Part shown: one piece after another, positions 3,575-15,497 of the stretch
How positions within the stretch are numbered: position 1 is the stretch's first letter
Layout of the letters: each line of letters starts with the position of its first letter
Source: an uncultured Oscillospiraceae bacterium
Lineage (GTDB): Bacteria; Bacillota; Clostridia; Oscillospirales; Oscillospiraceae
NCBI GenBank assembly: GCA_944385395.1
Contig: CALWXA010000056.1
Coordinates: 1-42,616, forward strand
DNA length: 42,616 bases
Direction of reading: 5' to 3'
Program-made: the position numbers and the translations under genes
Notes under the pieces: generated by a model
What the model saw: the letters and a program-made list of their open reading frames with translations, nothing else
What the model was told of the DNA's origin: nothing
The model's database searches: none

Positions 3575-5356
3575 TCAGCCAAAAATCTTTTTCCGATTCA
3601 GCCACACAGCGCCGCCAGTCAGGGCGCACAGTGCCAGCACGGCAGCCCACAGCGCAGGCTGTCCGGCATCGCCGGTCTCCGGTGCAGAGACCTTATCCGT
3701 GTAGCCCAGGGCATAGGTAGAGAAGCGGTCCGTCTGGAAGCTGAAGATCTGATCGTCTCCCGCCTGAACAGGCAGCTTTTCAGCCTTACCGTCATGGATG
3801 CGCAGCACGAAGAAGGTTCTGCCTTCCGCCTGCAGCTGGGCAGGCACAGCCATACGCACCGTCACCGGCTGAGCCAGCTCCTGCACGGTGCCCAGAACTT
3901 CGCCGTTGGCCTTGAGCAGCACGCTCAGATCGAAATAGGCCGCCAAGGTGTCAGCATCGCCCAGCACCTTCTCTGCCAGAGCTGCATCCGCCTGGCTCAT
4001 CTTATCCATAGCCTGGATCACCAGCTGGGCAGAAATATCTGCGCCAGCGGCAATGGCGTCGCTGACCTTTTCGGCCGTCTCAGCACTGACAGCATCGCTC
4101 GTGCCGGCAGTAATACCATCCACCACTTCCGCAATGGCCTGGTTCAGCTCCTCGGTGCCCTGGGCATCCATGCCCATCTGAACCGAATCGGCAGGGGCGG
4201 AAGGATCCAGCTCCGGCACTTCTGCTTCGATCACACCACCGCAGACCGTGCACACGCCATTCTCATAGTGATGGCTGTGCGTCACAGAGCCGTCTTCGTT
4301 CTGCTCATAGCCCTCAGGCATCCACTGAGCTGCATCCGTGGCAACGGAACCGTTGTTCAGCAGATAGGTGCCGCCGGTGATCTCCAGATCGCCCAGGGTA
4401 CCGTCCACATAGATGGCCACATCCGACCGGCCGGATTTGAAAGTGCCGCCCTTGAAGGTGGCAATGGCATCCTGCTTATCGCCGCCGTCATTGCTGTTGC
4501 CGATAAAGGCAGCATACTTGCTGGCAGAGGTAAAGGTGCCGCCGTACACGGTGGTGGACACCTGGCCGGACTCGCCGGCTACATACAGAGCGTACCAGGC
4601 GCTGTTCACTCCATGCTTATCGCAGCCCACCGTGGTAAAGGTCCCGTCATGGATCTCAGAGGTACCGGCGGAGGTAGAGAAGGCGCCCTGGACGCCGATG
4701 ACCGTGCCGTTATAGAAATAGAGCTCCGGTACGCAGCCGGCATCATTCATATGGCTCTGGATGGTATAGCCCCAGATGTCAGAATTGCAGGCAGAGCAGG
4801 AACGGCCGTCAAAGGTACCGTTATAGATCTTGGTAATACCGGCATTGTATACCGCCGTGGGGGTACCACCGAACCAGCCGTCATAGATGGTCACTTCACC
4901 ATAAGGACGGTTCTTGATGACGGCGCCGCCAGCATAGGTATAGCCGGTGAAGATACCGTTCTCAATGGCCAGGGTTCCGTAGTTGTCCACGGAGCCGTAA
5001 GCGGTAGTAGACGCAGAGGTATCCATGGTGCCCTCACCGGTAATGGTCAGGGTGCCGTTGTTGCAGATCGGCCGGCCCGTAAAGCCAGACGTCACCGTGA
5101 TGGTCTTGCCGCTGAGGTCCAGCGTGACGTCCTTGCCCTCGGCCAGCGTGATGACAGAATCCGCAACAAAGCTCTGCTCCAGCACCACCTTGGTGGCGGT
5201 GCCGGGCTCCACAGCGTCAAAAGCTTCCTGCAAGGAGGCATAGCCCTTGCCATCGATGGAAGCAATATCGCCTTCAGCGCCGTAGGCAGCTGCAGGCAGC
5301 AATGCCAGCAGCAGCGTCAAGCTCATCAGCCAGGCACACAAACGTTTGCTCTTCAT
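3575..5356 (-). CDS. Secreted beta-helix surface protein with C-terminal sorting signal
   Basis: A 593-residue exported protein of unknown function. A signal peptide (MKSKRL, hydrophobic core, cleavage near 'AAAYGAEG') is followed by a beta-helix-like region (about residues 40-340) with many repeats of the type I/V-x-x-G-T-F-x-x-G (ENGIFTG, YNGTFDG, HDGTFTT, YGGTFTS, KGGTFKS, TGGTYLL). Next come a Cys-x2-Cys knuckle (HYENGVCTVCGG), an Ala-rich helical region (about 395-470) and a domain with 'VTVRMAVPAQL'. The C-terminus has APETGD, a hydrophobic segment and NRKK, resembling a cell-wall sorting signal with Ala replacing Leu of LPXTG. It is probably anchored outside the cell as an adhesin-like or carbohydrate-binding protein. 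It has its own promoter and is not in an operon. Confidence 0.75.
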   Translation of the reverse strand: MKSKRLCAWLMSLTLLLALLPAAAYGAEGDIASIDGKGYASLQEAFDAVEPGTATKVVLEQSFVADSVITLAEGKDVTLDLSGKTITVTSGFTGRPICNNGTLTITGEGTMDTSASTTAYGSVDNYGTLAIENGIFTGYTYAGGAVIKNRPYGEVTIYDGWFGGTPTAVYNAGITKIYNGTFDGRSCSACNSDIWGYTIQSHMNDAGCVPELYFYNGTVIGVQGAFSTSAGTSEIHDGTFTTVGCDKHGVNSAWYALYVAGESGQVSTTVYGGTFTSASKYAAFIGNSNDGGDKQDAIATFKGGTFKSGRSDVAIYVDGTLGDLEITGGTYLLNNGSVATDAAQWMPEGYEQNEDGSVTHSHHYENGVCTVCGGVIEAEVPELDPSAPADSVQMGMDAQGTEELNQAIAEVVDGITAGTSDAVSAETAEKVSDAIAAGADISAQLVIQAMDKMSQADAALAEKVLGDADTLAAYFDLSVLLKANGEVLGTVQELAQPVTVRMAVPAQLQAEGRTFFVLRIHDGKAEKLPVQAGDDQIFSFQTDRFSTYALGYTDKVSAPETGDAGQPALWAAVLALCALTGGAVWLNRKKIFG

Positions 5357-5443
5357 CTTTCATGATCTTCCTTTCTTTTGGATGGTAGACAATCCCGCAT
5401 TTCCGGACAGCAGACAGCTGCGGCACGGAATATCTGCTCCTGC

Positions 5444-5471
5444 AGTATAGCACATCCCGCCGAAAATGCAA
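5444..5471 (-). promoter_or_regulatory. Promoter of the surface-protein gene
   Basis: On the minus strand: TTGCAT (5466-5471), a 16-base spacer, TATACT (5444-5449). The start codon at 5356 is about 80 bases downstream. Confidence 0.6.
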
Positions 5472-5567
5472 AGAGGGGATTCCATATTTTTCTCCCCTCT
5501 GCCGGTCTGTTGTCGGCAAAATGACACGGCAGCAGGCAAAAAAGTTTCATTTCCTCCACAAACAGCC

Positions 5568-5597
5568 TTGAATATATCATCCCACATGTGCTATAAT
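5568..5597 (+). promoter_or_regulatory. Promoter of the GntR regulator gene
   Basis: TTGAAT (5568-5573), an 18-base spacer and a perfect TATAAT (5592-5597). The expected start point near 5604 falls inside the TGTATACA palindrome, which suggests autoregulation. Confidence 0.65.
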
Positions 5598-5601
5598 GCT
5601 A

Positions 5602-5611
5602 TTGTATACAT
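5602..5611. promoter_or_regulatory. Predicted GntR operator (TTGTATACAT) at the regulator's own promoter
   Basis: It contains the 8-base palindrome TGTATACA (5603-5610), placed at the predicted transcription start of the GntR gene. The same 8-mer occurs at the dehydrogenase operon promoter and upstream of the TRAP promoter. FadR/FCD-type GntR proteins are known to bind short palindromes with GTnnnAC-type half-sites. The pairing with this protein is inference. Confidence 0.6.
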
Positions 5612-5665
5612 AAATAGAATCCCCAGGGTCGGATCGGCCTGTTCCGGGCAGACAAATCAGCAGGA

Positions 5666-6412
5666 ATGTGTGGTGGCAGTATGGCAACATATGACGAAAA
5701 GAACAAAGCGGAGCTGGCATATAACCAAATCAAGGAAAAGATCCTCTCCCTGGAGTTCCCGCCCCGGTATCCCCTGCGGGAGATCGAGCTGAGCCAGCTG
5801 CTGGACATGAGCCGTACCCCCGTCCGGGCCGCCATCGCACAGCTGATCTCCGATGGGTTCGTGGAGGAACTGGGACCCAAGCGCAATATCGTCAGCAGCG
5901 TTTCGGTGGACTCTTTCATGTCCATCCATCAGGTGCGGGAGGTGCTGGAGGATCTGTGCGTCTGGCTGGCCGCCTACGCTTGGAACGATCCGGTGGAGAT
6001 CGTCAAGATCCGCTCCCAGCTTCAGGAGCAGATCACCATGGCCGAGGAGCTGACCATTGATTCCCGGGCTTTCCTCCGGGCAGACCGGGCCTTCCACCGG
6101 GCACTGGCAGATCTGTCCCGGAATCCGCTGCTGGCCCAGGAGATGATGCGGGTATACGATCTCTACTGGCGCTACATCTTCTATTCCCTGCATATGGACG
6201 CTTCCCGGCAGATCGTGCAGGACCATCTGGACATTTTGGATGCCATCGAAAGCCGGGATACCGGCCGGGCCAAAACCCGGATGCGGGAGCATCTGACCCT
6301 GGCCAAGGACAGCATCCTCATGGGTCTGGCCAAGGGCTTTGAGCCGGTCCGGGAGCTGCCGCTGGTGAAGGGCGGCTACGCCCTGCGCACCGGAGAAAAT
6401 GCCGGAAAATAA
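5666..6412 (+). CDS. GntR-family regulator, FadR/FCD subfamily
   Basis: Transcriptional regulator of 248 residues (243 if Met6 at 5681 is used; neither start has a strong ribosome site: AGGA is too close to the first ATG and GGTGG precedes the second). The N-terminal winged helix reads 'LAYNQIKEKILSLEFPP' to 'LREIELSQLLDMSRTPVRAAIAQL'. The C-terminal FCD domain keeps the metal-binding Asp/His set (Asp and His in 'RADRAFHRALADLSRNPLL', His in 'QDHLDILDAIESRD', His in 'MREHLTLAK'), so it probably senses a carboxylate through a bound metal. Its promoter holds a TGTATACA palindrome repeated at neighbouring operons. It is the best candidate for regulator of the island 6480-15497. Confidence 0.92.
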   Translation: MCGGSMATYDEKNKAELAYNQIKEKILSLEFPPRYPLREIELSQLLDMSRTPVRAAIAQLISDGFVEELGPKRNIVSSVSVDSFMSIHQVREVLEDLCVWLAAYAWNDPVEIVKIRSQLQEQITMAEELTIDSRAFLRADRAFHRALADLSRNPLLAQEMMRVYDLYWRYIFYSLHMDASRQIVQDHLDILDAIESRDTGRAKTRMREHLTLAKDSILMGLAKGFEPVRELPLVKGGYALRTGENAGK

Positions 6413-6419
6413 TGATAGA

Positions 6420-6467
6420 AACAGGAAATTCCCCTTGCTTGAGAACAAGCAAGGGGAATTTCCTGTT
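6420..6467. terminator. Perfect 21-bp hairpin terminator between convergent genes
   Basis: The arms 6420-6440 and 6447-6467 are exact inverted repeats with a 6-base loop. The GC core CCCCTTGCTT/AAGCAAGGGG is followed by AATTT on both strands, so it can work as a bidirectional terminator for the GntR gene (plus) and the aminotransferase gene (minus). Confidence 0.85.
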
Positions 6468-6479
6468 AAAGGAGAATAT

Positions 6480-7655
6480 TCAGAACTCTGCGTCCAGCTT
6501 ATGGAGCAGATCGACTGCGTCTTTCAGCACTTCCATGGAGGAAGCATAGGACAGACGGGCATAACCCTCGCCGTTCTTACCGAAGGCGGAGCCGGGGATC
6601 ATGGCCAGGCGGTACTTGTCGATGGCATAGTTGCAGAAGTCCGCAGCGGTCATGCCGGTCTTTTTGATGTTCATGAAGATGTAGAAGGCACCCTCAGGCA
6701 TCTGGCAGCTGAAGTTCTTCATCTTGTTGATCTCCGCTACCAGGTAGTCACGGCGCCGCTTGAACTCCTGGCGCATCCGCTCAATGGAGCCGTCCTCTTC
6801 CTCCAGAGCGGTGACACCGGCATACTGCACGAATGTGGTGGCGCCGGCAGTCATATAGAAGGACAGGCGGTTCATGGGCTCGATCATATTCACCGGGGCG
6901 GCAATGTAGCCCAAACGCCAGCCGGTCATGGCCATGCTCTTGGAGAAGCCGTTGAGCACGATGCACCGCTCCTTCATGTCGGGCAGGGATGCGATGGACA
7001 CCAGCTGCTGTTCGTCGTCATAGACGAAATGGTCATAGATCTCATCGCTCAGCACGATCAGGTCGTGCTCCTTGGCGATAGCGGCAATGGCCTGCAGGGA
7101 CTCCATGCCCAGCACGCCGCCGGTGGGGTTGCTGGGAGAGACGATGACGATCATCTTGGTCTTGTCGGTAACCAGGGAGCGGATCTGGTCCACGTCCACC
7201 TGATAGTTGTTCTCCTCCAGCAGATCGTAGGCCTTCACCACAGCGCCGGCGATGTTGGGGATCTCATTGTACGTCAGATACACGGGATCCGGCACCAGCA
7301 CCTCATCACCGGGGTTCAGGGTGCTCATCAGCGCCACGAACATGGCCTGGGCCACGCCGGTGGTGACGGAGATCTCCGCAGGCTCGTAGTGCAGGCCGTT
7401 CTCCTTCTCCAGCTTGGCGCAGACCGCCTTTTTCAGCTCCGGGATGCCGTCGCCGTCGGTGTAGCGGGTATAGCCGGCGTCCAGAGCCTTCTTGCAGGCC
7501 TCTACGATGTACTTGGGGGTATCATAGTCGGGCTGACCTACCGTCAGAGCCGTGACCTTGATGCCTTCCCGGGCCAGCTGGCCGCATTTGCTGAACACCA
7601 CCCGGGTGCCGGAGGGGTGGAGATTTTCCAGTCGGTGTGCCTGTTCAAATTTCAT
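6480..7655 (-). CDS. PLP-dependent aminotransferase (class I/II, aspartate/aromatic type)
   Basis: Transfers an amino group between an amino acid and a 2-oxo acid in the cytosol; 391 residues, the normal size. The start is ATG at 7655, preceded by AGGAGGAACG; a longer open frame upstream is not needed. Landmarks: 'VGQPDYDTP' near the N-terminus, 'YTRYTDGDGIPELKKAV', 'VSPSNPTGG' (172-180), 'LSDEIYDHFVYD', the PLP lysine Lys239 in 'NGFSKSMAMTGWRLGY', and 'RLSYA' near the C-terminus. It is the second gene after the 2-hydroxyacid dehydrogenase (23-base gap), so it probably makes the 2-oxo acid that the dehydrogenase reduces. Substrate specificity cannot be read from sequence. Confidence 0.93.
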   Translation of the reverse strand: MKFEQAHRLENLHPSGTRVVFSKCGQLAREGIKVTALTVGQPDYDTPKYIVEACKKALDAGYTRYTDGDGIPELKKAVCAKLEKENGLHYEPAEISVTTGVAQAMFVALMSTLNPGDEVLVPDPVYLTYNEIPNIAGAVVKAYDLLEENNYQVDVDQIRSLVTDKTKMIVIVSPSNPTGGVLGMESLQAIAAIAKEHDLIVLSDEIYDHFVYDDEQQLVSIASLPDMKERCIVLNGFSKSMAMTGWRLGYIAAPVNMIEPMNRLSFYMTAGATTFVQYAGVTALEEEDGSIERMRQEFKRRRDYLVAEINKMKNFSCQMPEGAFYIFMNIKKTGMTAADFCNYAIDKYRLAMIPGSAFGKNGEGYARLSYASSMEVLKDAVDLLHKLDAEF

Positions 7656-7678
7656 GATCGTTCCTCCTGTCTGCTCAC

Positions 7679-8656
7679 TCAGCGGCCGGTATTGTCGCCG
7701 CCGGGGACAAAGTGGCATGCGTCGTAGTTGCCGGTGAAGTAATTGCGGATATCGGCACAGCAGTGCAGCCGTCCGTCACGCCCGGCTTCCTGGGAATAGA
7801 AGGCCACATGGGGGGTGATGATCACGTTGTCCCGGTTGGCCAGGGGATGGGTCTTGGGATCGGGGAACTCATCCACCAGCACATCCAGATAGGCCCAGGC
7901 CAGCTTGCCGCTGTCCAGCGCGTCGATGAGGTCCTGCTCCACCACTACGCCGCCCCGGGCAGCGTTGATGAACACAGCGTCCTCCTTCATGAGGTCAAAG
8001 AGGTGCTTGTCGATGAGGTTGGCCGTACCGTCGATCAGCGGGATATGCAGGCTCACATAGTCGGACTCACGGAACAGCGTCTCCATATCCACCATGGTCA
8101 CACCGTACTGGGCGCCGATGGACTGGTCAATGAAGGGGTCTGCCGCCAGGATCCGCACACCGAAACCGGACAGGTTCTTGGCCACCAGCCGGGCGATCTG
8201 GCCGAAGCCAGCCAGGCCCACCGTCTGGGTGTTGAACCGGCGGATCTCCGGGCAGACACCGAAGTCCCACTTCTTATCCACGCGAACGCTGCGGTCATAG
8301 GCAAACAGGCGCTTGTTGTGGGCCAGGATGCAGGCCGACACATAGTCCGCCACTTCGTGGACGCAGTAGTTGGTCAGATGGGTCACGGAAATCCCCCGCT
8401 CCTTGGCGGCTTCCAGATCCACATAGTTGTAGCCCATGCTCTTGCATGCAATGAGCTTCAGCTTGGGCAGGGACTTGATGACCCGGGCGGTCAGGGGCTC
8501 AAAAATGCCCATTACCGCATCGGCGTCCTTGCAGTATTCAATGATGTCTTCCTCGGTACTGCATACATGCTCCGTTACCTCGCAAAGACCCTTCAAAGCT
8601 TCCTGTTCCAGGCCCACGCCGTCGGCATAGTGGAACATACGTACTGCTTTATACAT
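7679..8656 (-). CDS. D-isomer-specific 2-hydroxyacid dehydrogenase, NAD-dependent
   Basis: Reduces a 2-oxo acid to a D-2-hydroxy acid (or the reverse). Length is 325 residues from ATG 8656, which follows GGGAGG; an in-frame upstream ATG at 8713 overlaps the predicted promoter and is rejected. The nucleotide-binding loop is 'VGLAGFGQIARLVAKNL' (147-162). The catalytic set is Arg234 in 'INAARGGVV', Glu263 in 'LDVLVDEFP' and His283 in 'TPHVAFYS'. It is the first gene of a two-gene operon with the aminotransferase. Its promoter has the AATGTATACATT palindrome over the -10 box, so it is probably repressed by the GntR regulator. It could recycle NADH during amino-acid fermentation. Confidence 0.93.
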   Translation of the reverse strand: MYKAVRMFHYADGVGLEQEALKGLCEVTEHVCSTEEDIIEYCKDADAVMGIFEPLTARVIKSLPKLKLIACKSMGYNYVDLEAAKERGISVTHLTNYCVHEVADYVSACILAHNKRLFAYDRSVRVDKKWDFGVCPEIRRFNTQTVGLAGFGQIARLVAKNLSGFGVRILAADPFIDQSIGAQYGVTMVDMETLFRESDYVSLHIPLIDGTANLIDKHLFDLMKEDAVFINAARGGVVVEQDLIDALDSGKLAWAYLDVLVDEFPDPKTHPLANRDNVIITPHVAFYSQEAGRDGRLHCCADIRNYFTGNYDACHFVPGGDNTGR

Positions 8657-8702
8657 GAATCCGACCTCCCGTATGAACATAAAATTTGTTGTGCTTTCGC
8701 TG

Positions 8703-8740
8703 AATGTATACATTATAGCGCCCTGTTTTTAGGCAGTCAA
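8703..8740 (-). promoter_or_regulatory. Promoter and overlapping operator of the dehydrogenase-aminotransferase operon
   Basis: Minus strand: TTGACT (8735-8740), a 17-base spacer, TATAAT (8712-8717). The perfect 12-base palindrome AATGTATACATT (8703-8714) overlaps the -10 box and the expected start point. A protein bound there would block RNA polymerase, so repression is the natural reading. Confidence 0.8.
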
Positions 8741-8947
8741 GCACATTTTTGTCCCACCCGCTATCCGCCCGCCATACGTCAACCGAACAGAAATGGTCAC
8801 AAATTCGTTCTATTTTTATGGAAAGTAACCTGTTTATTTGGCATAAATACATAAAAAATATTTTCCGCTTCGTAGCATTTCCTTTTTCAGGGAGAAAGTT
8901 TTGCCTTTCCCACAAAAGCGAGGGCCGAAATTGTACGAAAATGATAA

Positions 8948-8976
8948 TTGCATGCAATATTTGACGATGCTATAAT
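8948..8976 (+). promoter_or_regulatory. Promoter and overlapping operator of the amidohydrolase operon
   Basis: TTGCAT (8948-8953), a 17-base spacer and TATAAT (8971-8976). The -35 box lies inside the perfect palindrome TTGCATGCAA (8948-8957), which matches the TTGYATRCAA form of the other sites. The region 8718-8947 between the divergent promoters is AT-rich and holds no gene that I can support. Confidence 0.7.
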
Positions 8977-9011
8977 TTCTGTATCGCAGAAAAAAGCTTG
9001 GGAGGTACATC

Positions 9012-10655
9012 ATGAAAACGGCTGCGGATTCCATTTTTATCAACGGAAAGATCTACACCATGGTTTCCGAAAACGATACGGCGGAGGCTCTGTGTGTCAA
9101 AGACGGCGTGATTGTATACACCGGAACCACTCAGGAAGCTCTGGAGCGGTTCACCGCCCCGCAGGTGGTGGATCTGGAGGGCAAGACCATGCTCCCCGGT
9201 CTGGGCGACTCGCATCTTCACTTCTTCGCTTATTGCCAGACCCAGACCATGGTAGATCTGAGCGGCTGCAAGAGCAAGGAAGAGATGATCGCCGCTCTGG
9301 CGGCCAAGGCAGCCAAGACCCCCAAGGGCCAGTGGATCAAGGGCACCAATTTTGATGAATCCAAGTGGGTGGCAGACAATGACCATCTGCCCACCAAGGC
9401 GGATCTGGACCAGGCCAGCACGGAGCACCCCATCTTCATGAAGCGGGTCTGTCTCCACACCGCCGTGGCCAACTCCGCCGCTCTGGAGAAGGCCGGCATC
9501 GGACAAGGCTACGATTACGGCCCCGGCGGCCTGGTGGAGCTGGATGAGAACGGTATGCCCAACGGTGTGTTCCGGGAGCAGGCCACCAAGCTCTTTGACG
9601 CCCTGATCCCCGATCCCACCAAGGTGCCGGAGACCAAAAGACAGATCATGAAGGCCGCCCTGGCTGATGCAGCACGGGTGGGCATGACCACCATCCACAC
9701 CTATGCCGCCGAGATCTGGAAATATGAAGAGAATCCCGAGGATTATCTGGAGCTGGACCGTCAGGGCGAGCTGCCTTTGCGGGTAGTGATCTATCTGGAT
9801 ACCTTATATCATAAGCCCTACCTCACCTATAAGCAGATGGCCGATCCTTACCGCAAGGTTGGCTACGGCGGCTACAAGATCTTCTCCGACGGCTCGCTGG
9901 GCTCCCGTTCCGCCAAGCTGCTGGCGCCTTACAGCGACGATCCCAGCACCGACGGTATTCTGGTCCAGACCCAGGAGCAGCTCAACGAGCAGATGTACAC
10001 CGCCTACCGGATGGGCCTGCAGCCCGCCACCCACTGCATTGGCGACAAGGGTACCGACTGCGTGCTTACCGCCATTGAGTACACCCTGGCCAAGTGCCGG
10101 GAAGATGGCATGACAGAGCAGGAGCTGGCAGACCGGGATCCCTTCCGCATCATCCACGCCCAGATGGCCACCGACGAGATGGTGGAGCGCATGAAGAAGC
10201 TGCCGGTGGTGCTGGATATCCAGCCGGTTTTCCTGGAGACGGATATGCACTGGGTCATCGAGCGCATCGGACCGGAGCGTGCCGCTTACAGCTATCGCTG
10301 GAAGACCTACCGGGACGCCGGGCTCATCATGACCGGCGGCTCCGACTGCCCGGTGGAGCCCTTCTCCCCCTGGCTGAACATCTACACCGCCGTGGCCCGG
10401 AAGGATTTCCAGCATCAGCCCGCAGGCGGCTATCAGCCGGAGGAAAAGCTCAGTGTTTATGACGCCGTATGCCTGTTCACCAAGAACCTGCACTACGCCG
10501 CCGGTATGGACGCCTATCTGGGCACCCTGGAACCGGGGAAATTCGCCGACATGGTGGTCATCGACCGCAACATCTTTACCATCCCGGAAGACGACATTAT
10601 GGATACCCAGGTGGAAAAGACGTATCTGGCCGGCAAGGAAGTCTACAGCAAATAA
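9012..10655 (+). CDS. Metal-dependent amidohydrolase, YtcJ-like (amidohydrolase family 3)
   Basis: A 547-residue cytosolic hydrolase of the amidohydrolase superfamily; C-N bond hydrolysis is expected but the substrate is unknown. ATG follows GGGAGGTACATC. The N-terminal beta domain ('IFINGKIYTM', 'DGVIVYTG') leads into the first metal motif His68-x-His70 in 'GLGDSHLHFF'. Later come 'IFSDGSLGSRSA', His in 'ATHCIGDKG', 'RIIHAQM', the Asp of 'GGSDCPVEPFSPW', and the C-terminal return of the beta domain ('LEPGKFADMVVIDRN'). It is followed after 15 bases by the M20 hydrolase gene. A TGTATACA site inside its coding region (9113-9120) may be an auxiliary operator. Confidence 0.92.
   Translation: MKTAADSIFINGKIYTMVSENDTAEALCVKDGVIVYTGTTQEALERFTAPQVVDLEGKTMLPGLGDSHLHFFAYCQTQTMVDLSGCKSKEEMIAALAAKAAKTPKGQWIKGTNFDESKWVADNDHLPTKADLDQASTEHPIFMKRVCLHTAVANSAALEKAGIGQGYDYGPGGLVELDENGMPNGVFREQATKLFDALIPDPTKVPETKRQIMKAALADAARVGMTTIHTYAAEIWKYEENPEDYLELDRQGELPLRVVIYLDTLYHKPYLTYKQMADPYRKVGYGGYKIFSDGSLGSRSAKLLAPYSDDPSTDGILVQTQEQLNEQMYTAYRMGLQPATHCIGDKGTDCVLTAIEYTLAKCREDGMTEQELADRDPFRIIHAQMATDEMVERMKKLPVVLDIQPVFLETDMHWVIERIGPERAAYSYRWKTYRDAGLIMTGGSDCPVEPFSPWLNIYTAVARKDFQHQPAGGYQPEEKLSVYDAVCLFTKNLHYAAGMDAYLGTLEPGKFADMVVIDRNIFTIPEDDIMDTQVEKTYLAGKEVYSK
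9112..9121. promoter_or_regulatory. Intragenic TTGTATACAC palindrome, possible auxiliary operator
   Basis: A fourth TGTATACA (9113-9120) lies about 100 bases into the amidohydrolase gene, in the codons for Val-Ile-Val-Tyr-Thr. Its nearness to the operon promoter suggests a second operator, but chance codon choice can explain it. Confidence 0.3.
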
Positions 10656-10670
10656 GAGAAAGGATGTTGC

Positions 10671-12335
10671 ATGATGAAACTGGATTGTTTTGAGGAGGTC
10701 AAGCGCCTGACCTCGGAGATGGTGGCCATCCCCAGCATCAACAAGGAGCCCGGCGGCGAATCCGCCGTGGCCCGGTATGTATACGATTATTTCAAGTCCC
10801 TGCCCTATTTCCAGGCCCATCCCCAGCAGGTGATGTGCTTCCAGACCAAGGACGACTTCGTGGAGCGCCACTCCACCCTGGCCTATGTCAAGGGCACCAA
10901 GGGTCACTCCAACCGCACGGTGATCCTCATCGGCCACATCGACACCGTGGGTGTGGACGACTACGGCACCATCCGGGAATACGCCTTCCGGCCCCAGGAG
11001 CTGCCGGAGAAGCTGAAGGAGACCTTCTCCCTGTCCCCGGAAGTGCTGGCGGACATCGAGTCCGGCGAGTATCTCTTCGGCCGGGGCGCTCTGGACATGA
11101 AGTCCGGCGTGGCAGGCCACATGTACCTCATCAATTACTTCTCCCAGCATCCCGAAGAGCTGGACGGCAATCTGGTACAGATCGCCGAGTGCGATGAGGA
11201 GGATAACTCCCACGGCATCATCACCGCTGTGGACGTACTGCTGGAGCTGAAGAAAAAGGAAGGCTTCGAATATGTAGCCTGCATCAACGCCGACTATTCC
11301 ACCAACTATATGCCCGGCGACGAGAACCGCTACATCTATTACGGCAGCATCGGCAAGCTCCTGCCCACCTTCGTGGCTTTCGGCAAGGAGTCCCATGTGG
11401 GTTCGGCCTTCAGCGCCTTCGATCCCAACCTGCTTATCGCCGAGGTCACCCGTGGCATGTCCCTGAACACCGATCTTTGCGATATCGCCCAGGGCGAAGT
11501 CACCATGCCCCCCATCTCACTGAAGCAGGCAGACACCAAGGTGGGCTATACCGTTCAGACGGCCCTGAGCGCCATGTCCTACTACAACTTCTTCACCCAC
11601 GGCATGAGCCCCGATGTGGTGCTGGAAAAGTGCAAGGTCGTTGGTCAGACCGCCTTTGAGAACGTCATTGACTACCTTAACGACCAGTATCAGAAGTACT
11701 GCAGCCTCAGCAAGGTACCTTACAACAAGCTGCCCTGGCAGCCTCGGGTCTACACCTGGAAGGAGTTCTATGAAGAGGCCGCCGCCAAGCACGGTCAGCC
11801 CTTCCGGGACGCCATTGCCGCCTTCGCCGAGAATCTCCAGAAGGAGCAGCCCGCCATGGATCTGCGGTACTTCAGTCTGGCGGTGGTAGAGGAGGTCTGG
11901 AAGTGGTACGAGGATAAGTCCCCGGCCCTGATTCTGTTCTTCGGCTCTATCTTCAGCGCCCGCATTGAGATGACCGGCAAGACCGCCAAGGAAAAGGCTC
12001 TGCTGGATGCCGTGGAGCAGGCCGTGGATACCATCCGGCCCGACGCTCAGCGTCAGATCAAGACCCGGATGTTCTATCCCTACATCTCCGACTCCAGCTT
12101 CATGGCCCTGTGCGACACCCGGGAATCCTTCAACGCCGTGGCGGAGAATATGCCTTCCTGGAAGGTGAAGTACTTCCACGACGTGGATAAGATCCTGGAG
12201 ATCAACGTTCCCGTGGTAAATATCGGCGCTTTTGGCCGGGACGGTCACATGCTCACCGAGCGGGTGGACATGGTGCAGACCTTCCGCAACGTGCCCAACA
12301 TCTCCTACGAGACCATCCGGCAGCTGCTGGATTGA
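10671..12335 (+). CDS. M20-family metallohydrolase, RocB-like
   Basis: A 554-residue zinc peptidase/deacylase-type enzyme. Its length and large insertion resemble Bacillus RocB, the arginine-utilisation protein of unproven activity. Metal-binding motifs: 'LIGHIDTVG' (His89, Asp91), 'FGRGALDMKSG' (Asp142) and 'AECDEEDNSHG' (Glu176/Glu177). The insert around residues 100-130 and the long C-terminal half exceed a normal M20 enzyme of about 400 residues. Two adjacent ATG codons (10671, 10674) follow AGAAAGGA. It is cotranscribed with the amidohydrolase and precedes the TRAP operon, so it probably cleaves an imported amide or a product of the amidohydrolase. No signal peptide, so cytosolic. Confidence 0.88.
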   Translation: MMKLDCFEEVKRLTSEMVAIPSINKEPGGESAVARYVYDYFKSLPYFQAHPQQVMCFQTKDDFVERHSTLAYVKGTKGHSNRTVILIGHIDTVGVDDYGTIREYAFRPQELPEKLKETFSLSPEVLADIESGEYLFGRGALDMKSGVAGHMYLINYFSQHPEELDGNLVQIAECDEEDNSHGIITAVDVLLELKKKEGFEYVACINADYSTNYMPGDENRYIYYGSIGKLLPTFVAFGKESHVGSAFSAFDPNLLIAEVTRGMSLNTDLCDIAQGEVTMPPISLKQADTKVGYTVQTALSAMSYYNFFTHGMSPDVVLEKCKVVGQTAFENVIDYLNDQYQKYCSLSKVPYNKLPWQPRVYTWKEFYEEAAAKHGQPFRDAIAAFAENLQKEQPAMDLRYFSLAVVEEVWKWYEDKSPALILFFGSIFSARIEMTGKTAKEKALLDAVEQAVDTIRPDAQRQIKTRMFYPYISDSSFMALCDTRESFNAVAENMPSWKVKYFHDVDKILEINVPVVNIGAFGRDGHMLTERVDMVQTFRNVPNISYETIRQLLD

Positions 12336-12342
12336 CGCCCCT

Positions 12343-12356
12343 TTGCATGTATGCAA
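12343..12356. promoter_or_regulatory. Inverted repeat TTGCAT-GT-ATGCAA upstream of the TRAP operon
   Basis: A perfect 14-base palindrome with the same half-sites as TTGCATGCAA at the amidohydrolase promoter, but with the half-sites 4 bases further apart. It lies just after the M20 stop codon, about 250 bases upstream of the TRAP start point. Confidence 0.4.
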
Positions 12357-12361
12357 TTATT

Positions 12362-12420
12362 TTCAAATATAAATTCTATACATACCAACTGTGCAAAGTA
12401 CAGGAAAGTTTATATTTGAA
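12362..12420. repeat. 12-bp inverted repeat with 35-base spacing
   Basis: TTCAAATATAAA (12362-12373) is repeated exactly in inverse as TTTATATTTGAA (12409-12420). It is AT-rich and lacks the GC stem of an intrinsic terminator. It may be a paired binding site or a weak fold that ends the M20 transcript. The rest of 12336-12686 is the TRAP regulatory region and leader; I see no gene in it. Confidence 0.6.
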
Positions 12421-12534
12421 TGGTTTCCGGCGATTAACTCCTATCTAATCTATAAAAAATCGGTTTTTTCCTGTAATACGGCTGGAAATTGCCGGCTTCC
12501 TTTGCTTCGTTATTTCGCCGAAATACTTTATGCG

Positions 12535-12544
12535 TTGTATACAA
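12535..12544. promoter_or_regulatory. Predicted GntR operator TTGTATACAA upstream of the TRAP promoter
   Basis: A perfect 10-base palindrome centred about 55 bases before the expected TRAP start point, upstream of the -35 box. The position differs from the other sites, so it may act in activation or together with the 12343 site by looping. Confidence 0.6.
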
Positions 12545-12559
12545 AATCCCCCTGGCTTG

Positions 12560-12588
12560 TTGACACGTATTTTGTCGACTGCTATAAT
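12560..12588 (+). promoter_or_regulatory. Consensus promoter of the TRAP operon
   Basis: TTGACA (12560-12565), 17 bases and TATAAT (12583-12588): an exact consensus housekeeping promoter. A leader of about 90 bases follows before the GTG start. Confidence 0.88.
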
Positions 12589-12686
12589 TTTTACGTCCTT
12601 TACGGCAGGATCGGGATCTGAGGGAGGTCCCGTCCCCGTTTGGGAAACCATATCATGCATATTTTAGGAAGAACGGAGGAAACGCA

Positions 12687-13727
12687 GTGAGCAAAAGTGC
12701 AAAACGAATTTTTGCCCTGATCCTGGTGATTGCTGTGGCGGCTACGGCTGGTTTATTTGCCAAGATGAACTACAACAGCACCCACAACACCCAGGATACC
12801 ATCGTGGTCCGGCTGGCCCACGTGGTTGCAGAAGACAACCCCATTCACCAGGCTTCCCTGATTTTCCAGGAGGAGCTGGAGCGTATCTCCAACGGCAGGT
12901 TTGAGGTCCGCATCTATCCCAACTCCGCCCTGGGCGGAGACCGGCAGCAGGTGGAGAGCACCATCCTGGGCTATATCCAGGGCTGTGTTCCCCCCAGCGG
13001 AACCCTGTCCGCCTTTGACCAGCGCCTGATGGTCATTGACCTGCCCTTTGTCTTTAAGTCCGGCGAAGCCGCTACGGCTACCCTCAACGGCGAGCTGGGC
13101 GAGGTTCTGGATCCCATTCTGGAAGAGCTGGGCATCTATCCCATGGGCTGGACCGAGTCCGGTTTCCGTCACATCACCACCAACGACAACCCCGTGACGT
13201 CCCCCGATGACCTCAAGGGCCTGTCGGTGCGCACCATGGAGAACCCCATCCATGTGGCCTCCTTCCGGGCCTGGGGCGCCAACCCCACTCCCATGGCCTT
13301 CTCTGAGCTGTTCACCGCTCTGCAGCAGGGCACTGTGGACGCCCAGGAAAACCCCATCATGGTCACCATGTCCAACCGTCTTTTTGAAGTGCAGAATACC
13401 CTGTCTCTGACGGGTCACTTCTTCTCTGCCGGCTGCATCTCCTTCAACAAGGAGTTTGTGGACAGCCTCACCGAGGAGGAGAAAGCCTGGTTTGACGAGG
13501 CCGGCCAGCACTTCGTGGATAACCTGACCCGTCTGGTGCGGGAGCAGGAGCAGGATTACATCCAGCAGGCCCGTGACGAAGGCATGAACGTAGTGGAACT
13601 GACCAGCGAGCAGAAGGACGCCTTTATCGAGGCTGCCGCCGATGTGTATGATCTCTTCATTGAGCAGTACAACGGTTCTCAGGAGCTCATCGACCTGGCC
13701 ATGCTCTACAATGATGAATTGGGTTGA
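12687..13727 (+). CDS. dctP: TRAP transporter solute-binding protein, DctP family
   Basis: Extracytoplasmic binding subunit of a sodium-driven TRAP importer for organic anions; 346 residues. The GTG start is chosen because CGGAGGAAA lies just upstream. A basic N-terminus (MSKSAKR) and one hydrophobic segment are present, but no lipobox cysteine, so it is either secreted after cleavage or held by an uncleaved anchor. Family landmarks: 'VRLAHVVAEDNPIHQ', 'VRIYPNSALGGDRQQVE', and the ligand-contact block 'GLSVRTMENPIHVASFRAWG' followed by 'FSELFTALQQGTVDAQENP', where the Arg normally binds the substrate carboxylate. It is the first gene of dctPQM. The ligand is unknown, but the neighbouring hydrolases suggest an acylated or amide-containing acid. 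Confidence 0.93.
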   Translation: MSKSAKRIFALILVIAVAATAGLFAKMNYNSTHNTQDTIVVRLAHVVAEDNPIHQASLIFQEELERISNGRFEVRIYPNSALGGDRQQVESTILGYIQGCVPPSGTLSAFDQRLMVIDLPFVFKSGEAATATLNGELGEVLDPILEELGIYPMGWTESGFRHITTNDNPVTSPDDLKGLSVRTMENPIHVASFRAWGANPTPMAFSELFTALQQGTVDAQENPIMVTMSNRLFEVQNTLSLTGHFFSAGCISFNKEFVDSLTEEEKAWFDEAGQHFVDNLTRLVREQEQDYIQQARDEGMNVVELTSEQKDAFIEAAADVYDLFIEQYNGSQELIDLAMLYNDELG

Positions 13728-13741
13728 GAGGAGGGGCTGAC

Positions 13742-14230
13742 ATGACTGCATTGAAATGGATCAATGAGCATCTGGAAAAATGGTTCCTGATCCTCTCCCT
13801 GATCGTTATGGTGCTGGTTACCACCATGCAGGTAGTGCTGCGTGAGTTCGGCAGCGCCACCGTCTGGGCTGAGGAGCTGTGCCGCTATATCATGCTCTAT
13901 CAGGTGTGGGTTGGCGCCTCTTACGCCATCCACGAGGACGCACACATCCGCATCACCGCTCTGACCAACATCCTCAAGGAAAAGAACAAGCTGAAGGTGG
14001 AGCTGGTTGTGCTCACCGTCTGGCTGATCTTCGCCCTGTGGCTGATGATCGAGGGCTGCGTGCTGGTGAACAAGGTGGCCATCATGGGCCAGCTGTCCCC
14101 GGCTATGCAGATCCCCATGGAGGTCCCCTACGCTTCCGTACCCCTGGGCGGCCTGCTGATGGCCATCCGGCTGGTGCAGAAGATCATTGTGACCCTGAAG
14201 AAACTTTCTGCAGAGGAGGAGGCGGCATAA
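13742..14230 (+). CDS. dctQ: TRAP transporter small membrane subunit, DctQ family
   Basis: A 162-residue membrane protein with four hydrophobic segments, the usual DctQ layout: 'WFLILSLIVMVLVTTMQVVLR', 'ELCRYIMLYQVWVGASYAI', 'VELVVLTVWLIFALWLMI' and 'YASVPLGGLLMAIRLVQ'. The motif 'WAEELCRYIMLYQVWVGAS' is typical of the family. The start is ATG 13742 with GAGAGGAGGGG before it; an upstream in-frame TTG overlapping the dctP end is less likely. It sits 14 bases after dctP and 1 base before dctM, so it is in the same operon. Confidence 0.92.
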   Translation: MTALKWINEHLEKWFLILSLIVMVLVTTMQVVLREFGSATVWAEELCRYIMLYQVWVGASYAIHEDAHIRITALTNILKEKNKLKVELVVLTVWLIFALWLMIEGCVLVNKVAIMGQLSPAMQIPMEVPYASVPLGGLLMAIRLVQKIIVTLKKLSAEEEAA

Positions 14231-14231
14231 C

Positions 14232-15497
14232 ATGTTAGTGATTCTGTTTATTGCGCTGATCGTGCTCAGTGCCATCAGCCTGCCCATCGGCATCAGCATG
14301 GGCATCGCCACCATGCTCTGCCTGATCTTCGCCACCAACATTGATCCCATCATGATCGCCCAGTGCGCCTTTACCGGCATGGACAGCTTCCCCCTGATGG
14401 CTATCCCCTTCTTCATGCTGGCCGGTAACTTCATGCGCTACGGCGGTATCTCCAAGCGCCTTCTGAACCTGGCGGACAACATCGTCGGCTTCTTCACCGG
14501 CGGTCTGGGCGCCATCACCACCGTGACGGCCATGTTCTTCGCCGCCATCTCCGGTTCCGGCCCCGCCACCGTGTCTTCTATCGGCGCTTTCATGATCCCC
14601 GAAATGGAAGCCAAGGGCTACGATAAGGGCTATGCTACCGCTCTGTCCTGCGCCGCCGGTACCATCGGCGTCATCATCCCGCCCTCCATCCCCTTCGTGA
14701 TCTACGGCGTGGCCACCGGCACCTCCATCAGTGACCTGTTCAAGGCCGGTATCCTGCCCGGTATCCTGATGGGCATTGCCATCATCATTTACAACTACAT
14801 CCGGGCCAAGAAGTACGGCTGGAAGGGTAACGGCCGCCGGTTCCAGTGGAAAGCCCTGGGCAAGAGCTTCATCGATTCCTTCTGGGCCATCCTCAGCCCC
14901 GTGATCATCCTGGGCGGTATCTACTCCGGTAAGTTCACCCCCACCGAGTCCGCCGCCATCTCCTGTGTGTACACCTTCATCATCGGTACCTTCGTCTATA
15001 AGGAAATCCGCTGGAAGGAATTCATGGACTGCATGAAGGATACCGCCATCATCGCCGGTGCTACCTCCTTCATCGTAGGTATGTCCACCAGCTTCTCCTA
15101 CGTGCTGACTCTGGAAGAGGTGCCCGCCACGGTGTCCACCTTCATCCTGGGCCTTACCGACAACAAGATCCTGGTGCTGCTGATCATCAACATCTTCCTG
15201 CTGATCGTGGGCTGCTTCATGGACAACATCTCCAGCTGCACCATCCTGGCTCCCATCCTGCTGCCCATCGTGGTGGCCCTGGATGTCAGCCCCGTGCAGT
15301 TCGGTATCGTGATGACCATGAACCTGGCCATCGGCTTCATCACTCCTCCCTACGGTGCCAACCTGTTCATCGGTTCGTCCGTGGCACGGCTGCCCTTCGA
15401 GAAGGTAGTGAAATGGATCTGGGGCTTCATCGCCACCATCATCGTGGTGCTGATGCTCACCACCTATATCCCCCAGATCTCCCTGCTGCTGGTGTGA
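14232..15497 (+). CDS. dctM: TRAP transporter large membrane subunit, DctM family
   Basis: The main transport subunit, 421 residues with about a dozen hydrophobic segments. Family landmarks: 'FPLMAIPFFMLAGNFMRYGGISKRLLNLA', 'ISGSGPATVSSIGAFMIPEM', 'GTIGVIIPPSIPFVIYG', 'FTPTESAAISCVYTF', 'GCFMDNISSCTILAPILLPI' and 'ITPPYGANLFIGSS'. It carries the sodium and substrate path. The ATG is one base after the dctQ stop, with GAGGAGGAGG upstream. It is the last gene of the operon and is followed by a clear terminator. Confidence 0.95.
   Translation: MLVILFIALIVLSAISLPIGISMGIATMLCLIFATNIDPIMIAQCAFTGMDSFPLMAIPFFMLAGNFMRYGGISKRLLNLADNIVGFFTGGLGAITTVTAMFFAAISGSGPATVSSIGAFMIPEMEAKGYDKGYATALSCAAGTIGVIIPPSIPFVIYGVATGTSISDLFKAGILPGILMGIAIIIYNYIRAKKYGWKGNGRRFQWKALGKSFIDSFWAILSPVIILGGIYSGKFTPTESAAISCVYTFIIGTFVYKEIRWKEFMDCMKDTAIIAGATSFIVGMSTSFSYVLTLEEVPATVSTFILGLTDNKILVLLIINIFLLIVGCFMDNISSCTILAPILLPIVVALDVSPVQFGIVMTMNLAIGFITPPYGANLFIGSSVARLPFEKVVKWIWGFIATIIVVLMLTTYIPQISLLLV

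Follow-up and report, generated by a model that had tools for sequence, protein, structure and literature searches.

Candidate operators of an FCD-type GntR regulator at a divergent promoter pair in an uncultured Oscillospiraceae bacterium

Background

A 42,616-nucleotide contig of an uncultured Oscillospiraceae bacterium (GenBank assembly GCA_944385395.1, contig CALWXA010000056.1; the whole stretch is hereafter called the window) carries, around positions 5602-12544, a gene for an FCD-type GntR regulator, two divergent metabolic transcription units and the genes of a TRAP transporter. A TGYATRCA palindrome stands near the promoter of each of these four units, and the original prediction tied them together in one GntR regulon. 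Two questions are raised by this locus: are the palindromes operators of the adjacent regulator, and which of them belong to one conserved system? The palindromes are beyond chance, and the set that is conserved consists of those at the divergent promoters and a further one inside the amidohydrolase gene. Among the matches listed in a literature search, there was no report of this gene cluster.

Palindromic sites and their promoters

The minus-strand unit begins with a D-2-hydroxyacid dehydrogenase gene (7679-8656; Pfam 2-Hacid_dh_C, 8.9e-51), followed by a class I/II aminotransferase gene (6480-7655; Aminotran_1_2, 1.5e-76). The plus-strand unit consists of an Amidohydro_3 family amidohydrolase gene (9012-10655; 1.1e-116) and a gene for an M20-family metallopeptidase or deacylase-like protein of 554 residues (10671-12335; Peptidase_M20, 7.6e-11), behind which lie the transporter genes dctP, dctQ and dctM on the same strand (12687-15497; DctP 1.5e-81, DctQ 5.1e-28, DctM 4.2e-118). 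Three candidate operators are found between and within the divergent genes. O1, ATGTATACAT (8704-8713, within AATGTATACATT at 8703-8714), overlaps the -10 hexamer of the dehydrogenase promoter (TTGACT-17-TATAAT, minus strand) by 2 bp. O2, TTGCATGCAA (8948-8957), lies over the -35 of the amidohydrolase promoter, TTGCAT-17-TATAAT, whose hexamers (TTGCAT at 8948-8953, TATAAT at 8971-8976) were read from the sequence, the -35 being too weak for the promoter scan. O3, TTGTATACAC (9112-9121, with TGTATACA at 9113-9120), is situated inside the amidohydrolase gene and was absent from the original list. Outside this core, TTGTATACAT (5602-5611), a candidate autoregulatory operator, starts 4 bp after the TATAAT (ending at 5597) of the regulator promoter (TTGAAT-18-TATAAT), and TTGTATACAA (12535-12544) ends 15 bp before a perfect promoter of the transporter genes (TTGACA-17-TATAAT, 12560-12588), its centre being near -55 if transcription is taken to start 7 nucleotides after the -10. 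The five elements first described, including TTGCATGTATGCAA at 12343-12356, were all recovered at their positions, and the hexamers bear out the promoter placement claimed for the regulator, dehydrogenase, amidohydrolase and TRAP sites. Promoter-like hexamers are no evidence on their own, since eight were found where 4.7 are expected in shuffled sequences.

The claim that the 8-mer is rare by chance holds strongly for the intergenic regions and only mildly for the window as a whole. Eight copies of TGYATRCA occur in the window against a mean of 3.27, a count reached by two of 100 shuffles, and all eight are concentrated in 5603-12543. The three intergenic regions considered (5357-5665, 8657-9011 and 12336-12686; 1015 bp in total) hold five copies against a mean of 0.06, and none of 5000 dinucleotide-preserving shuffles reached that number. 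In the genome scan proposed along with the prediction, which covered the own genome (G000; 1.985 Mb, 104 contigs), TGYATRCA is found 61 times and its reversed control 22 times, and the longer WTGYATRCAW 20 times and its control five times, six of these 20 sites falling within the 7 kb of 5602-12544.

Conservation in related genomes

Two relatives allow the sites to be compared in context. G316, of the same genus, has the TRAP, M20, amidohydrolase, dehydrogenase, aminotransferase and regulator genes in a matching arrangement (53-88% identity). G764 carries the regulator on contig L006 and the remaining cluster on contig L080, the end of which overlaps L006 by 55 identical bases. Identities to G316 and G764 are respectively 76% and 70% for the amidohydrolase, 88% and 83% for the M20 protein, and 53% and 56-58% for the regulator. 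O1 is kept in G764 as TTGTATGCAA and in G316 as TTGTATCCAA, with one mismatch; in both it lies a little downstream of the dehydrogenase -10, its distance from the hexamer being 4 bp greater than in the window. Both relatives have TTGCATACAA as O2, and its 17-bp distance to the -10 is equal in all three genomes. The internal site O3 recurs as TGTATACA at nucleotide 102, 102 and 104 of the amidohydrolase open reading frame in the window, G316 and G764, is the sole TGYATRCA of the gene in each, and is built from different codons in G764. From codon usage only, the chance of finding it at this place is 0.015, 0.085 and 0.059 respectively; the first two values are not independent, because the window and G316 share the protein and the codons ATT GTA TAC. 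The dehydrogenase-amidohydrolase intergenic region of G764 (331 bp) contains two sites, a result obtained in none of 1500 shuffles. The single exact site of the G316 region is matched in 76 of 1500 shuffles and is not rare, so that the evidence from this genome lies in the position of the site and not in the count.

The four-unit regulon was therefore reproduced in G316 and G764 at the dehydrogenase and amidohydrolase promoters, and not at those of the regulator and the transporter. Before the regulator gene, the closest match has one mismatch in G764 and two in G316, and 478 and 913 of 1500 shuffles are as good; in the gap between the M20 and TRAP genes, the best sites have three and two mismatches, equalled in 1500 and 621 of 1500 shuffles. 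The sites before the regulator gene and before the transporter are probably extra, lineage-specific operators. The transporter could also be read from the amidohydrolase promoter, since it follows the amidohydrolase and M20 genes on the same strand in both relatives.

More distant genomes add some information. G643, a distant member of the same phylum, groups M20, aminotransferase, dehydrogenase, FCD regulator (31-32% identity) and TRAP genes with two more M20 genes, and no amidohydrolase was found in the 14 kb fetched. TTGTATACAT stands there before the dehydrogenase and again between the regulator and the transporter, and none of 1500 shuffles gave two sites in these two regions. G307 (81% complete) encodes the amidohydrolase (60% identity) and the M20 protein (74%); none of its three FCD matches is orthologous to the regulator (the best reaches 35% over 51 residues) and no site lies upstream of its amidohydrolase. 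O1 and O2 accompany an adjacent orthologous regulator in all three genomes (the own genome, G316 and G764), and G307, without that regulator, is also without the sites.

The regulator was found in four of 300 genomes of the family at E <= 1e-20 (the own genome and three at 30-33% identity), in two of 398 genomes of the phylum at E <= 1e-25 (the own genome and G643) and, in the genome_contigs set, in one relative (L006 of G764); a search with the G643 regulator returned one of the four genomes of its order, G643 itself. The amidohydrolase was matched in eight of 119 relatives, only G316 and G307 being close besides the own genome; the five matches at 33-35% identity were left out of the site test. 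Around G764 it was matched in three of 41 genomes, and the stretches fetched around the homologues of G796 and G765 (46-52% identity) contained no dehydrogenase, regulator or promoter site. The dehydrogenase was found in two of 391 genomes of the class, and in the 18 kb fetched from G994, which has it, the rest of the cluster was not found.

Spacing of the core operators

The distances between the core sites are nearly constant: from O1 to O2 they are 244, 242 and 244 bp, and from O2 to O3 164, 162 and 163 bp, in the window, G316 and G764 respectively. In the same order, the intergenic region has 355, 328 and 331 bp, and other gaps vary more, with 47, 24 and 26 bp from the dehydrogenase leader to O1 and 351, 94 and 279 bp between the M20 gene and dctP. 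The sequence between O1 and O2 has drifted: the spacers of the window and G764 are no more alike than shuffled sequence, and those of the window and G316 lie within the range of 50 shuffles. The spacers of G316 and G764 keep a weak similarity above all 50 shuffles, so that the equal spacing is not entirely independent of shared ancestry. In divergent units, a constant distance between paired sites has been read as cooperative action (Suvorova et al., PMC4494728), and the spacing kept in these three genomes may be taken as suggestive of cooperation among O1, O2 and O3. A bolder interpretation, which we hold only tentatively and regard as somewhat doubtful, is that the three sites form an array in which selection holds the distances at about 244 and 163 bp, since a tetramer would loop the DNA and silence both divergent units together. 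Such an array would take in at once the drift of the O1-O2 spacer, the rebuilding of O3 from different codons and the constancy of the distances. If the kept spacing does mean looping, a structural result obtained on one agrobacterial protein would extend to distant bacteria, and an operator would be maintained inside coding sequence.

The regulator, its known relatives and a proposed mechanism

The regulator gene (5666-6412, plus strand; its start may be at 5681) encodes a member of the FCD (FadR) subfamily, with an N-terminal GntR winged helix and a C-terminal FCD domain that both score above the Pfam cut-offs (4.4e-10 and 6.2e-24). Counted from start 5681, residues D135, H139, H182 and H204 provide the Asp or Asn and three His that characterize the metal-binding FCD group, and they are invariant across four regulator proteins. 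The published operator of the FadR subfamily, TKGT/ACMA with a 2-nucleotide centre (Suvorova et al. 2015, PMC4494728), is fitted by the TTGYATRCAA sites, in agreement with the earlier statement that FCD-type GntR proteins bind palindromes of this kind. The regulons described in that survey include divergent units in which two sites keep a constant distance, as in the window; as the survey describes them, these are divergons that include the regulator gene, whereas the divergent units of the window contain structural genes only and the regulator lies outside.

Of the studied proteins with this operator, the nearest is Atu1419 of Agrobacterium fabrum, an FCD-type GntR protein of determined structure (PDB 6z74/6za0/6za3/6za7/6zab; PMC7797058). 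Its operator is ATGTATACAT, a 10-mer identical to O1. It is reported to bind this operator with a dimer that is part of a tetramer, the G being read by Arg45, and loops have been visualized by microscopy (PMC7797058). The recognition residues Ser44, Arg45, Thr46 and Arg49 align with the SRTPVR helix of the window regulator, and the metal ligands Asn137, His141, His192 and His214 with its Asp, His, His and His. According to the same source, Atu1419 sites cover -10 boxes, as O1 does here; two sites lie 190 bp apart, the corresponding distances in the window being 244 and 164 bp; and a degenerate site occurs inside a target gene 109 bp away, as O3 does inside the amidohydrolase gene (PMC7797058). 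The two systems also differ. The two proteins are only modestly similar overall (E 4e-14, which ranks second among 11 solved chains), TTGCATRCAA variants occur in the window, and the agrobacterial pathway, as described, concerns hydroxycinnamic acids, unlike the cluster of the window.

Repression from O1, O2 and O3 is proposed because Atu1419 shares the operator and the aligned recognition residues and metal ligands. Building on the directly observed sites, promoter positions, conservation in two relatives and domain make-up, we consider it likely that the regulator represses both divergent units through this core and is relieved by a carboxylic acid. The protein would bind the TTGYATRCAA operators, with O1 on the dehydrogenase -10, O2 on the amidohydrolase -35 and O3 within the amidohydrolase gene presumably cooperating, and would thereby shut off the dehydrogenase-aminotransferase unit and the amidohydrolase-M20 unit, possibly with the transporter. 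A loop between the operators, as in Atu1419, is plausible but unproven. Repression would end when a small carboxylic acid handled by the cluster enters the metal-containing pocket; the combination of TRAP, amidohydrolase, M20, aminotransferase and dehydrogenase genes would narrow this ligand to a carboxylic acid with an amide or acyl linkage. The kept spacing is the interesting part of the system. For the clostridial Firmicutes, thinly covered by the survey, in whose set one of 634 FadR-type factors is clostridial (PMC4494728), the cluster also offers a small and specific example of an FCD regulon.

Several observations weigh against this interpretation. The cluster was found in this arrangement in two relatives only; O1 has a mismatch in G316 and is shifted by 4 bp against its own -10 in both; the single exact intergenic site of G316 is not rare; and the sites of the regulator and the transporter are conserved in neither relative above chance. 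No site adjoins the regulator gene of the homologues in G042, G094 and G015 (30-33% identity). The residual likeness of the G316 and G764 spacers means that shared ancestry may contribute to the equal distances, and the AlphaFold model of the regulator, made from a two-sequence alignment, is poor (mean predicted local distance difference test score, pLDDT, of 52.7). Finally, another FCD protein might bind the cluster sites, since FCD genes on contigs C4 and C68 of the own genome lie in clusters that share the motif.

Alternative readings

This last point leads to the strongest of the alternatives, which we nevertheless judge unlikely: several FCD paralogues could share the operator, and the cluster could be under the joint or main control of another one, for instance that of C4 or C68. 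At C4:7636, TTGTATGCAA is part of a 28-bp palindrome; an HMGL-like gene and then an FCD gene come next, and the product of the latter has the identical SRTPVR helix. The sites at C68:18735 and 18796 precede the gene of a family-5 solute-binding protein, and at its far end, about 8 kb away, the gene string has an FCD gene. In G764, at C92 (L082:3329), TTGTATACAATATACAAT (core TTGTATACAA) separates an FCD gene from a divergently oriented M20 gene, making a second pairing of these genes with the motif. The assignment to a single GntR protein is supported by the domains of the regulator and weakened by the motif in front of other FCD clusters. Sites elsewhere in the genome are not assignable to the window regulator, because two other FCD genes are associated with the motif. 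Yet O1 and O2 co-occur with the adjacent orthologous regulator in three of three genomes, G307 having neither, and WTGYATRCAW is near only three of the 26 FCD loci examined (G316, G643 and C92 of G764), so that it is no generic FCD site; TGYATRCA is near eight, the C4 locus having entered this count with 3.4 kb that did not reach its palindrome.

Control by repression at the core is also preferred to activation. An activator, most plausibly acting at the transporter, would suit the position of 12535-12544 upstream of a perfect promoter, and CitO, an FCD protein, is described as an activator; nevertheless both O1, which overlaps or touches a -10, and O2, which covers a -35, are in blocking positions, and the transporter site shows no conservation beyond chance in G316 and G764, so that this reading appears quite improbable. 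That the palindromes are chance products of AT-rich intergenic sequence is hardly credible: the mild enrichment over the whole window and the occasional single sites expected in other AT-rich regions would allow for it, but it is contradicted by the shuffles of the intergenic regions themselves and by positional conservation in two relatives.

Further sites and neighbouring features

Other members of the palindrome family were noted in and around the cluster. The element at 12343-12356, originally regarded as a relative with wider spacing, is present and also holds an ordinary member, TGTATGCA (12348-12355), so that a wider spacing is unneeded; the standard site is ATGTATGCAA (12347-12356), directly after the M20 stop codon and 188 bp before the transporter site, and no counterpart was found in G316 and G764. 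The two sites before the transporter (12343-12544) thus have nearly the 190-bp separation of Atu1419, and neither relative has the pair. Two further TGYATRCA copies, likewise absent from the original list, lie inside the dehydrogenase gene (8443-8450 and 8560-8567). The one at 8442 was rejected as an operator and is probably incidental, since the codons there spell a conserved I-A-C-K and the palindrome is not preserved in either relative. In G316, TTGTATACAT is found at L031:8739 directly before a minus-strand open reading frame, some 850 bp ahead of the regulator gene.

Elsewhere in the own genome, the long palindrome GTTGTATAATTGTATGCAATTATACAAC (C4:7622-7657, L011) before the HMGL-like and FCD regulator genes is probably the operator of the C4 regulator itself. 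TTGTATGCAA and TGTATACA are 61 bp apart at C68:18735-18803 (L013:13736-13804). At C32:24256 and 24429 (L012:8257 and 8430), TTGTATACAA in a longer palindrome and TTGTATGCAA are separated by 173 bp. The pair lies in front of a Glu/Leu/Phe/Val dehydrogenase gene, and the search for FCD genes gave none on this contig.

Ahead of the regulator gene, the leader segment GGATCGGnCTGnTCCGGG (5630-5655) is alike in the window and G316 (L031 7945-7975); neither an Rfam match nor unusual folding was seen for it. Within the window, every Rfam family stayed below its gathering score, and the leader RNAs of the regulator and the transporter are not unusually stable (z 1.58, -0.97 and -0.98). A minus-strand open reading frame of 593 residues with a signal peptide-like N-terminal stretch occupies 3578-5356 and matched no Pfam family at E <= 1e-5. 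The convergent genes for the regulator and the aminotransferase are separated by a strong 20-bp hairpin that has a T run (6422-6465) and resembles a terminator.

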